Positions 58,842 through 61,779 of a DNA stretch of 64,000 nucleotides are shown here, in pieces. The DNA is from Halobaculum magnesiiphilum. GTDB taxonomy: Archaea > Halobacteriota > Halobacteria > Halobacteriales > Haloferacaceae. The stretch is from contig NZ_CP081958.1 in NCBI RefSeq assembly GCF_019823105.1, positions 1,488,001-1,552,000 on the forward strand, given 5' to 3'. How positions within the stretch are numbered: the first letter of the stretch is position 1; every line of letters starts with the position of its first letter. The position numbers and the translations under genes were made by a program. The notes below the pieces were generated by a model. It did not search any database. It was given only the letters and a program-made list of their open reading frames with translations, and had not been told where the DNA came from.

Positions 58842-60827
58842 ATGGGACAGACGATTACGGAGCAGATTCTCGACGATCACCTCGTCGAGGGCGAGCTGAC
58901 ACCCGGCGAGGAGATCGGGATCGAGATCGACCAGGTCCTCACGCAGGACACGACGGGCACGATGGTGTGGCTGCAGTTCGAGGCGCTGGACCTCGACGAG
59001 GTTCAGACGGAACTGGCCGCGCAGTACTGTGACCACCAGACGTACCAGTTCGACTTCAAGAACACCGACGACCACCGCTTCCTCCGCTCTGCGGCGGGCA
59101 CCTTCGGCGCGTACTTCTCCCGCCCCGGCAACGGCATCTGCCACCAGGTCCACAAGGAGAACTTCGCCGCGCCCGGCAAGACGCTGCTGGGCTCGGACTC
59201 GCACACGCCGACCCCCGGCGGCCTCGGCCAGCTGGCGATCGGCGCGGGCGGCCTCGACATCGCGGTCGCGATGGGCGGCGGCGCCTACTACGTCGAGATG
59301 CCCGAGGTCGTGAACGTCCAGCTGACCGGCGAGCTCCCCGAGTGGGCCACCGCGAAGGACGTCGCGCTCCACCTGCTGGGCGAGCTGACCGTCAAGGGCG
59401 GCGTCGGCAAGGTGCTGGAGTACACCGGCCCGGGCGTCGAGGAGCTCACCATTCCCGAGCGGACGACCATCACGAACCTCGGCACCGAGCTGGGCGCCAC
59501 GTCCTCGATCTTCGGCACCGACGAGAAGACGAAGGACTGGCTGGCGCGCCAGGACCGCGAGGAGGAGTACGTCGACCTCTCGCCCGACGAGGACGCCGAG
59601 TACGCCGAGACCATCGAGGTCGACCTCTCGTCGCTGGAGCCGCTCATCGCCAAGCCGTCGATGCCCGACAACGTCGTGCCCGTCCGCGAGGTCGCGGGCG
59701 AGGACGTCGAGCAGGTCATCATCGGCTCCTGTACGAACGGCGCCTACGAGGACATCCTCCCCGGCGCGAAGATGCTGAAGGGCCGTGAGGTCGCCAAGAA
59801 GACCGAGATGATCGTCGCGCCCGGTTCCAAGCAGGCCTCCGAGATGCTCGCCCGCGAGGGCTGGACGGCCGAGATGATGGCCGCCGGCGTCAACTTCTCC
59901 GAGGCGACGTGTGGCGCCTGTATCGGCATCGGCCACGTGCCCGCCTCCGACTCCGTGTCGCTGCGGACGTTCAACCGCAACTTCGAGGGCCGCTCGGGCA
60001 TCGAGGACGACTCGGTGTTCCTCTGCTCGCCCGAGGTCGCCACGGCGGCGGCCATCGCCGGCGAGATCGTCGACCCGCGCGACCTGGCCGACGAGCTCGG
60101 CGACCTGGAGGCGCCCGGTCTCGAGATGGGCACCAAGTACGGTCCCGGCATGGGCGAGTCCGACCCGGACATCATCAGCCCCGACGAGGCCGTCGACGAC
60201 GACCTCATCAAGGGCCCGAACATCGGCGACGTGCCCCTGAAGGACGAGCTCGCCTCCGATATCGAGGGCGAGGCGCTCCTGAAGATGGAGGACAACATCA
60301 CGACCGACCACATCATCCCGGCGACGGCGGACATCCTCAAGTTCCGCTCGAACATCGAGAAGCTCTCGGAGTTCACGCTGAGCCGCGTCGACGACACGTT
60401 CGCCCAGCGCGCGCTGGACGCCGACGGCGGCTTCCTCGTGGCCGGCGAGAACTACGGCCAGGGCTCCTCGCGTGAGCACGCGGCCCTGTGCCCGATGTTC
60501 CTCGGCGTGGAGGGCGTGCTCGCACAGAGCTTCGCCCGCATCCACAAGGCGAACCTGTTCAACTTCGGTCTCGTCCCCCTCACCATCGACGAGGAGACGT
60601 ACGAGAGGATCGACCAGGGCGACGACGTCGAGATCGTCGACGACGTGGGCGAGGGCGTCCGCAACGGCGCCACCGAGTTCACGGTCCGCGTGAACGACGA
60701 CTGGGAGGCCACGGCGCACCTCGACGCCTCCGAGCGCGAGCGCAAGATCCTCGCGGCCGGCGGGAAGCTCTCGTGGACGAAGCAGCAGCACGAGTCAGGC
60801 AGCGGCGCGGCGCCCGCTGACGACTAA
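58842..60827 (+). CDS. acnA: Aconitate hydratase
   Basis: A 661-residue [4Fe-4S] enzyme interconverting citrate and isocitrate in the TCA cycle. The cluster cysteines are in IIGSCTNGAYED and ATCGACIGIG. LLGSDSHTPTPGGLG and the C-terminal swivel domain GENYGQGSSREHAALCP bind substrate. It is shorter than bacterial AcnA (about 890) and matches the compact LeuC-like aconitase found in haloarchaea. It is probably monocistronic; the 370-base region behind it is filled with hairpins. Confidence 0.93.
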   Translation: MGQTITEQILDDHLVEGELTPGEEIGIEIDQVLTQDTTGTMVWLQFEALDLDEVQTELAAQYCDHQTYQFDFKNTDDHRFLRSAAGTFGAYFSRPGNGICHQVHKENFAAPGKTLLGSDSHTPTPGGLGQLAIGAGGLDIAVAMGGGAYYVEMPEVVNVQLTGELPEWATAKDVALHLLGELTVKGGVGKVLEYTGPGVEELTIPERTTITNLGTELGATSSIFGTDEKTKDWLARQDREEEYVDLSPDEDAEYAETIEVDLSSLEPLIAKPSMPDNVVPVREVAGEDVEQVIIGSCTNGAYEDILPGAKMLKGREVAKKTEMIVAPGSKQASEMLAREGWTAEMMAAGVNFSEATCGACIGIGHVPASDSVSLRTFNRNFEGRSGIEDDSVFLCSPEVATAAAIAGEIVDPRDLADELGDLEAPGLEMGTKYGPGMGESDPDIISPDEAVDDDLIKGPNIGDVPLKDELASDIEGEALLKMEDNITTDHIIPATADILKFRSNIEKLSEFTLSRVDDTFAQRALDADGGFLVAGENYGQGSSREHAALCPMFLGVEGVLAQSFARIHKANLFNFGLVPLTIDEETYERIDQGDDVEIVDDVGEGVRNGATEFTVRVNDDWEATAHLDASERERKILAAGGKLSWTKQQHESGSGAAPADD

Positions 60828-60829
60828 AG

Positions 60830-61049
60830 CGAGGTCGAGCGCAGCGAGACCTCGGTCTGACGGCGGCGAGGTGTGTGCGGCCGACCTCCGGTCGGCCGCA
60901 CGGCCCGAGCCGCCCACGAAGAACCGCTTTTCGGATGAGGGTTTCCTCGGCCGCCTTCGGCGGCCTGCGGGAACCCTCATTGAAAACCCGTTCATGTCGT
61001 CGGATTCCGCAGGAATCCGACTGCTGACGGGAAATCTTCGATTTCCCGT
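60830..61049. repeat. Array of five perfect palindromes downstream of aconitase
   Basis: In order: CGAGGTC arms around GAGCGCAGCGA (60830-60854); 11-bp arms TGCGGCCGACC with loop TCC (60876-60900); ATGAGGGTT outer arms with inner GGCCGCC-TTC (60935-60980); GTCGGATTCC with loop GCA (60999-61021); and ACGGGAAATC with loop TTC (61027-61049). They start right at the acnA stop and occupy nearly all of the gap to 61050. No gene is present. Bases 61050-61197 hold only a weaker GGGCC/GGCCC repeat and the promoter of rimI. Confidence 0.9.
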
Positions 61050-61165
61050 AATGCCAAAACTGCCGCTCGCTCGGGCCTAACGGCCCTCGCTCGCGGTACG
61101 CTACGTCGGCCGCGCCGCACCGCAACACACTATGGAGATGCCGCTTCATCGGTCGTCCGCCAGTT

Positions 61166-61174
61166 CACTTATCC
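61166..61174 (+). promoter_or_regulatory. TATA-like site of rimI
   Basis: cacttatcc lies about 25-30 bases before the GTG at 61198, supporting a leaderless start there and not at the ATG of 61132. Confidence 0.55.
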
Positions 61175-61197
61175 CTACAACCTCCAAAGGGCGGGTC

Positions 61198-61779
61198 GTG
61201 ACCACCTCGCGCGGCGCTGCCGCGGGCGATGACGAAACCGACGAGCCGCGGATCCGCCCGGCCGGCCGGGCGGACCTGCTCGGCGTGTTCCGCATCGAGA
61301 AGGCCGTGTTCGCCCAGCCGTGGCCCTACGCGGCCTTCGAGGGGCTGCTCGACGCGCCGGGGTTTCTCGTCGCGGAGGGCGATCCGGACGCCGGCGCTCG
61401 GGCAGCAGCGGGCGGGGACGCGATCGACGGCGCGATCGACGCCGGCGACGTGATCGGCTACGTCGTCGGCGACGTGACGCCGAACCACGGACAGGACATC
61501 GGCCACATCAAGGACCTCGCGGTGCGCCCCGACGCACAGGGGAGGGGGCTCGGCCGGCGGCTGCTCCGGGCGTCGCTGTCGGAGCTGGCGGCCGCGGGCG
61601 CGAGCGTGGTGAAGCTCGAGGTTCGCGAGAGCAACCACCGCGCCCAGGACCTGTACGACGACGAGGGGTTCCGGCCGGCCCGGCGGATCCCGCGATACTA
61701 CGGCGACGGCGAGTCGGCGTTCGTGATGCGACTCGACCTGGGCGAGTGGGTCCGCGAGCGCAACGCGGGCGAGTCGTAG
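61198..61779 (+). CDS. rimI: N-terminal/GNAT acetyltransferase RimI-type
   Basis: A 193-residue GNAT. The acetyl-CoA site is IKDLAVRPDAQGRGLGRRLL and the C-terminal KLEVRESNHRAQDLYDDEGFRP block contains the NxRAxxLY motif of RimI (cited in parts: ESNHRAQDLYDDEGF). An insertion of Ala/Gly/Asp-rich sequence (about 62-82) splits the core. It probably acetylates protein N-termini. The GTG at 61198 is chosen because a TATA-like site lies 25-30 bases upstream. Confidence 0.86.
   Translation: MTTSRGAAAGDDETDEPRIRPAGRADLLGVFRIEKAVFAQPWPYAAFEGLLDAPGFLVAEGDPDAGARAAAGGDAIDGAIDAGDVIGYVVGDVTPNHGQDIGHIKDLAVRPDAQGRGLGRRLLRASLSELAAAGASVVKLEVRESNHRAQDLYDDEGFRPARRIPRYYGDGESAFVMRLDLGEWVRERNAGES

Follow-up and report, generated by a model that had tools for sequence, protein, structure and literature searches.

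A nested stack of dispersed palindromic repeat modules behind the aconitase gene of Halobaculum magnesiiphilum

Hairpins of the acnA-rimI spacer

The window analyzed here, a 64-kb stretch of the H. magnesiiphilum contig NZ_CP081958.1, carries the aconitase gene acnA, followed on the same strand by a gene for a RimI-like N-acetyltransferase. The 304-nt spacer between them (60828-61131) holds four perfect hairpins with 3-nt loops and two imperfect ones, which can be assigned to the following modules:

58842-60827, + strand, acnA (aconitase), an open reading frame of 661 aa with the stop codon at 60825-60827
60829-60856, + strand, module 0a, a stem CGAGGTC/GACCTCG with an 11-nt loop, directly 3' of the stop codon
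60862-60914, + strand, module 0b, an outer stem GGCGGC/GCCGCC around an inner hairpin (60875-60901) with 12-bp arms and a TCC loop
60923-60996, + strand, cassette A, comprising ACCGCTTTT, the hairpin 60935-60980 (with the perfect hairpin 60949-60965 inside it), and AAAACCCGTTCATG
60994-61053, + strand, B/C twin-hairpin unit (type 1), comprising hairpin B (60999-61021), TGCTGA, hairpin C (61027-61049), and TAATG
61063-61096, + strand, module D, an imperfect hairpin CCGC-TCGCTC-GGGCC-TAAC-GGCCC-TCGCTC-GCGG
61132-61779, + strand, open reading frame of the RimI-like N-acetyltransferase, the downstream neighbor

The perfect hairpins have arms of 12 bp (60875-60901), 7 bp (60949-60965, enclosed by the longer stem 60935-60980), and 10 bp each (B and C), all with 3-nt loops. 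The first-pass annotation of this DNA had described five perfect or near-perfect hairpins with 7- to 11-bp arms at 60830-61049. These hairpins are real, four of them being perfect with 3-nt loops and the fifth being the stem of 7 bp at 60830-60854, which encloses an 11-nt loop, but the arms range from 7 to 12 bp; the sixth, imperfect hairpin (61063-61096) lies just beyond that range. The statement that such a row is far beyond chance is borne out by the shuffling test. When a perfect hairpin is defined by arms of at least 7 bp and a loop of 3 or 4 nt, the four in the spacer compare with a mean of 0.09 in shuffled sequences, and none of the 2,000 dinucleotide shuffles reached four, so that a chance origin can be dismissed. 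The spacer is the hairpin-richest stretch of its length in the window, and its folding energy is far below that of the shuffles, both as RNA (z = -8.8) and as DNA (z = -7.3). Comparison with Rfam yielded only sub-threshold chance matches to microRNAs, so the row was not assigned to any known RNA family.

The acnA-rimI gene order (58842-61779 in the window) is kept in many haloarchaea, with spacers of tens of bases to ∼1 kb. In the Haloarcula relatives, these spacers are hairpin-rich in a way of their own.

Dispersed modules and twin-hairpin units

The spacer consists of dispersed repeat modules stacked and nested in one another, and it is probably not a fixed 3' untranslated region (UTR). A search of the same genome with the spacer sequence found 28 places, the best of which, besides the spacer itself, was 87% identical over 177 nt. 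The copies share a common module order, [0a][0b] - ACCnCTTTT - hairpin A - AAAACCCGTTCATG - (B - TGCTRA - C - TRATG) - CCAAAA - hairpin D. Module 0a is dispersed elsewhere in this genome, relatives of module 0b are found at five other loci (L004, L007, L094, L140, and L215), and module D comes after A or B/C in other cassettes. The proposal of the first-pass annotation that the interval is an accumulation site of palindromic elements is thus well supported, given that its modules are dispersed and nested and that their presence at the orthologous acnA site varies among the congeners.

The ACCNCTTTT sequence of cassette A occurs only once in the 64 kb, but the A motif has 14 copies in the genome, one of them with one mismatch, and was found in all 11 congeners examined. 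Among 70 distinct cassette A copies, drawn from 11 congeneric genomes, 56 carry CCnCTTTT in the sense orientation no more than 14 nt from a stop codon. The upstream genes recur between genomes, such as those coding for PhoU-like and AAA/PAN-like proteins, with the names of the host genes based on short C-terminal peptides, and another genus has cassettes of the same plan behind the same genes (L236, L238, and L246). At one gene, hairpins A, B, C, and D are all swapped between genomes, with the pairing retained. The other proposal of the first-pass annotation, a structured 3' UTR protecting the aconitase mRNA, is conceivable at most: the sense position of the cassettes behind the stop codons of the same genes fits a role at 3' ends, but cassette A is not specific to aconitase.

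Hairpins B and C, the fourth and fifth of the row, belong together as one twin-hairpin unit of 57 bp, in which the linkers stay constant and the stems vary with full compensation: among 20 copies, 99.3% of the cells are paired and 10 of the 15 pairs are altered on both sides, with a covariation score of 0.64, compared with 0.24 in shuffled alignments and at most 0.13 in slid controls. The flanks ATG, TGCTRA, and TRATG are invariant, the mean column identity is 73%, and the inverted ends are weak. The covariance model R1 recovers the window copy (60994-61053) with an E value of 4e-31 and detects 10 strong copies in the genome (65 to 76 bits), the next match scoring 31 bits. At the family level, 117 of the 148 genomes match R1 at E ≤ 0.001, a count that includes weak and reverse-strand matches (in the genome studied here, 10 strong ones of the 28 listed), so only strong matches enter the argument. 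Since weak R1 matches include cross-hits, the genomes with the best match at E ≤ 1e-15 were counted by hand; there were 76 of 148, in approximately 20 of the 28 genera. B/C units occur singly, in tandem arrays, and as parts of cassettes, of type 2 units, and of an IS200/IS605 element (see below). In the tandem arrays (L213, L232, L233, L239, and L247), the stems differ from unit to unit while the linkers stay the same. One twin-hairpin unit (L277, G000:C1:1564567-1564626) seemingly lies in frame within a mutS-like coding sequence.

A second twin-hairpin family, referred to here as type 2, has the layout GTCGTTCGA..TCG-TGATGA-CGA..TCGAAC and was detected in 154 of the 292 haloarchaeal genomes, representing 58 of 77 genera, with no matches to the reversed control. 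Beyond the fixed CGA, its arms mismatch at 4% of the positions, compared with 25% when the 3' arms are re-dealt (107 copies listed), and the arm words are common to different genera and to both slots. Type 2 units have no orientation bias relative to genes. Their TGATGA linker resembles box C of the C/D-box RNAs, a reading that was set aside because no paired D box was seen and the guide positions are filled by the stems.

Modules are repeatedly found inside other modules. Type 2 units sit within cassette A hairpins (L093, L176, and L214), and at three loci of the same genome (L267, L273, and L274) the type 2 linker itself contains a B/C unit, with CGTG-ATG-[B/C]-ATG-ACGA in place of CGTGATGACGA. 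Two further types were read by eye from the aligned cassettes. Type 3 units are nested in the triloops of hairpins A (L091 and L160) and D (L101/L148/L164 and L179), with the 3-nt triloop repeated on both sides of the insertion (TCC..TCC and TTC..TTC). Type 4 units are seen in module 0b (L188 and L215, compared with L094 and L140).

The triloops of the cassettes in this genus include 27 TTC and 18 GAA, 16 TCC and 16 GGA, so that reverse complements are statistically even; the background hairpins of the window do not have such evenness. A DNA-level process, such as loop inversion, would account for this more easily than an RNA function. The symmetry is approximate, given that GAA (43) outnumbers TTC (24) among the class-wide type 2 copies listed.

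Gain, loss, and exchange of modules

The acnA genes of 10 congeners, 95 to 99% identical, allow comparison of the interval at orthologous sites, as proposed in the first-pass annotation. An A-D cassette follows acnA in 5 of the 11 congeners. In genome G093 (L186), A and D are nearly as in the window, and exactly the B/C block and 0a+0b are missing. In genome G067 (L187), the A hairpin contains a type 2 unit, itself with a twin hairpin, and is followed by B/C and D. In genome G098 (L181), whose aconitase is 99% identical, three tandem 0a-type units take the place behind acnA, without A-D; in this closest congener, the 0a-type unit is ∼70 bp long. Modules present in one congener are missing from another, and the array is not conserved even within the genus. 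The perfect conservation across distant genera that, according to the first-pass annotation, would point to a fixed RNA structure is thus not seen.

The cleanest orthologous case is found at another locus, where A, D, and the flanks on either side are almost the same in G098 (L231) and G000 (L096), but B/C is present in G098 only. Elsewhere, A and B/C differ between conserved flanks (L091/L147 and L101/L164), or the difference is in A (L090/L227). B/C is gained or lost as an exact block at ATG/TG sites, many of them within other palindromic repeats and close to where an IS200/IS605 element ends.

That element provides the polarity. Two tnpB genes (L249 and L250) contain an exact 57-bp in-frame B/C insert (at 1501-1560 in L249) that adds 19 aa near the C terminus of TnpB, translated as ETGSP[ITRSRRLLVSSQNSPSSDD]TLKERTASAVSE; in L240 and L243, the insert was seen at the DNA level. 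The insertion point lies between TTGAGGG and GGGCTTCC near the end of tnpB, in one arm of CCCCACCCT/AGGGTGGGG. The corresponding empty site, TTGAGGG-TG-GGGCTTCC or close variants of it, is present in L251 to L255, which come from five genera (Halorussus, Haloarcula, Halorubrum, Halomarina, and Haladaptatus), and most of the plasmid records listed match the element in two pieces with a gap of ∼57 bp. The empty sites in five genera and the two-piece plasmid matches polarize the change as an insertion. The direction, gain versus loss, may be regarded as firm at tnpB only, given its widespread empty sites. The acnA array was not found on plasmids. A viral origin of the repeats was considered as well and rejected: type 2 had no match in IMG/VR, and of the 4 matches to a loose B/C pattern there, the one inspected was an AT-rich chance match.

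Cassettes also seem to take part in larger rearrangements. The spacer between the genes for the AAA/PAN-like and PhoU-like proteins has opposite orientations in G000 and G098, along 1.5 kb and with 92.9% identity:

L260, G000:C1:1298700-1301400, inverted spacer locus
L261, G098:C1:1250300-1253700, inverted spacer locus

The two genes are convergent, with a cassette behind each, so that inverted cassettes bound the flipped spacer. One of the inversion breakpoints lies a few bases 3' of a stop codon, at the ACCTCTTTT block.

Interpretation and known relatives

The hairpins probably represent a nested stack of dispersed, transposase-less mobile palindromic repeats, moved in trans and residing in recombining cassettes at gene 3' ends, where the cassette would aid in forming mRNA 3' ends. 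Mobility of the modules is suggested by the sequence comparisons: modules come and go, nest in one another, and retain their fold while the letters change, and so resemble little-known miniature mobile DNA at gene ends. Hairpin A, together with D and sometimes 0a/0b, constitutes a sense cassette behind stop codons, with its hairpins swapped at the same gene between genomes. B/C and types 2 to 4 would be small mobile repeats, mobilized in trans by an enzyme recognizing folded single-stranded or cruciform DNA. The first suspect, albeit without direct support, would be a Y1 (IS200/IS605 TnpA) enzyme. Of the 11 congeners, 5 lack the Y1 transposase (Pfam accession number PF01797), and strong B/C copies are present in four of these 5. 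In the genome studied here, the Y1 copies are on other contigs (C2 and C3); a dedicated Y1 transposase was rejected, as it is not consistently present among the 11 congeners. Cassettes could be reshuffled by recombination at short common blocks (CTTTT and AAAACCCGTTCATG) and retained at certain genes because the T4 tract and the hairpins help form or protect the mRNA 3' ends.

Two points suggest such a role of cassette A in termination or stabilization, namely, its placement 3' of stop codons and the existence of T-stretch terminators in Haloferax (PMC7237163). Termination sites in Haloferax volcanii have a T stretch just behind genes and sometimes hairpins, and a hairpin there terminated transcription (PMC7237163); the view, taken in the first-pass annotation, that single terminator hairpins are not expected in archaea was therefore too strong. 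The arrangement is not the same, as the H. volcanii hairpin lies upstream of the 3' end (PMC7237163), whereas the hairpins studied here are dispersed repeats and come after the T4 tract.

A bolder version, in which a dedicated enzyme that works on folded single strands of DNA inserts and swaps a class-wide, shape-read superfamily of twin hairpins, with stems drawn from a shared vocabulary, loops that flip, and mRNA 3' ends re-equipped in the process, is rather unlikely. If true, it would give haloarchaea a class-wide superfamily of miniature mobile DNA that acts as a shufflon of gene ends.

It is quite improbable that the spacer encodes a fixed 3'-UTR RNA, a terminator or stabilizer evolving by compensatory change with immobile hairpins. 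The sense orientation, the fixed place behind stop codons, the cassettes at the same genes in other genera, the strong covariation, the low folding energy, and the ability of hairpins to terminate transcription in Haloferax (PMC7237163) would all agree with it, and vertical descent under selection explains the presence of cassette A at the same genes without mobility. However, sister species have whole modules missing or replaced at the same gene, and the exact indels weaken this reading further. An immobile RNA would also have to accommodate the B/C unit within the tnpB coding sequence, the lack of orientation bias of type 2, stems that are words common to both slots and genera instead of products of gradual drift, and triloops used about equally in the senses of both strands.

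In a scenario without any transposition, ectopic gene conversion together with microhomology recombination among the dispersed cassettes could produce the swaps of cassettes between conserved flanks, the inversion between inverted cassettes, and the tandem B/C arrays. Gene conversion would require a homologous acceptor, whereas flanking homology is lacking for B/C in tnpB or in type 2 and for the triloop insertions of type 3, with their 3-nt duplication, which makes recombination alone a poor candidate as well. Finally, attC-like sites, at which an integrase-like enzyme would read folded hairpins and shuffle cassettes at gene 3' ends, are hardly credible: structure retained while the sequence is free and the exchange and inversion of cassettes at constant blocks would be consistent with them, but homologous recombination explains the exchanges too.

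The favored reading, mobile repeats in recombining cassettes, places B/C next to several known systems. The small mobile repeats SMR-A and SMR-B of Haloquadratum walsbyi are 80 to 110 bp long, with terminal inverted repeats and commonly >95% identity (PMC3119063). Like B/C, these repeats are short, noncoding, transposase-less, haloarchaeal, and inserted in a strain-specific manner (PMC3119063). SMR-A, of about 110 bp with prominent terminal inverted repeats, prefers to insert into palindromes close to the ends of IS605-type elements and of palindrome-associated transposable elements (PATEs) (PMC3119063), and a target of this kind is seen for B/C near the end of the IS200/IS605 tnpB element, the one element type examined. 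B/C is set apart from the SMR description by its 57-bp length, two hairpins, weak inverted ends, free stems, and 73% identity. PATEs, which are fused IS605 ends, are likewise haloarchaeal, palindromic, and transposase-less, and measure ∼50 bp in their shortest, terminal-only form (52 bp) (PMC3119063); B/C, in contrast, is a guest near an IS605 end and showed no likeness to such an end when the tnpB-side flank was aligned.

The bacterial counterparts are the REP, BIME, and REPIN elements with their RAYT transposases, palindromic doublets with two hairpins, compensatory changes, and tandem clusters (PMC3116915, PMC3733652). The repeats described here are similarly short, palindromic, dispersed, multicopy, and largely extragenic (10 strong B/C units and 14 A cassettes). 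REPINs, however, combine a conserved REP sequence with a variable spacer, whereas B/C has conserved linkers and variable stems, lacks the GTAG/CGTC tag at the hairpin foot, is also found in coding sequence, and has no Y1 gene alongside it in 5 of the 11 genomes. As neither the defining features of REPINs (a conserved, tagged REP and RAYT) nor those of SMR-A (size and homogeneity) were found, B/C is not counted as a member; it can be considered REPIN/SMR-like in its probable working, with membership in neither claimed. Some insertion sequences target REP elements (PMC1525189); type 3 units resemble these in being inserted into palindromic repeats (the A and D triloops) and differ from those described there in being noncoding twin hairpins of ∼55 to 60 bp.

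It is mainly in bacteria that dispersed palindromes of the REP type are known. A search of the open literature, covering the motif sequences as well as REP-like repeats of haloarchaea, yielded no description of the B/C family. This haloarchaeal family has stems that are free in sequence and linkers that are constant; its empty sites are clean, its insertions are nested, and gene 3' ends appear to be its home. The family lends itself well to the question of whether the shape of a hairpin is enough to guide transposition or recombination, and to that of whether mobile repeats rebuild archaeal 3' ends. It also carries a warning that a haloarchaeal 3' "UTR structure," even one with good covariation support, may be mobile DNA.

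An intergenic repeat of a different kind, whose ends resemble GTGGGACTGAAAGGGGCCG...GGGGGCTTTCGCGGT, is dispersed as well and sometimes has twin hairpins inside (L267, L278, L279, L091, and L096).
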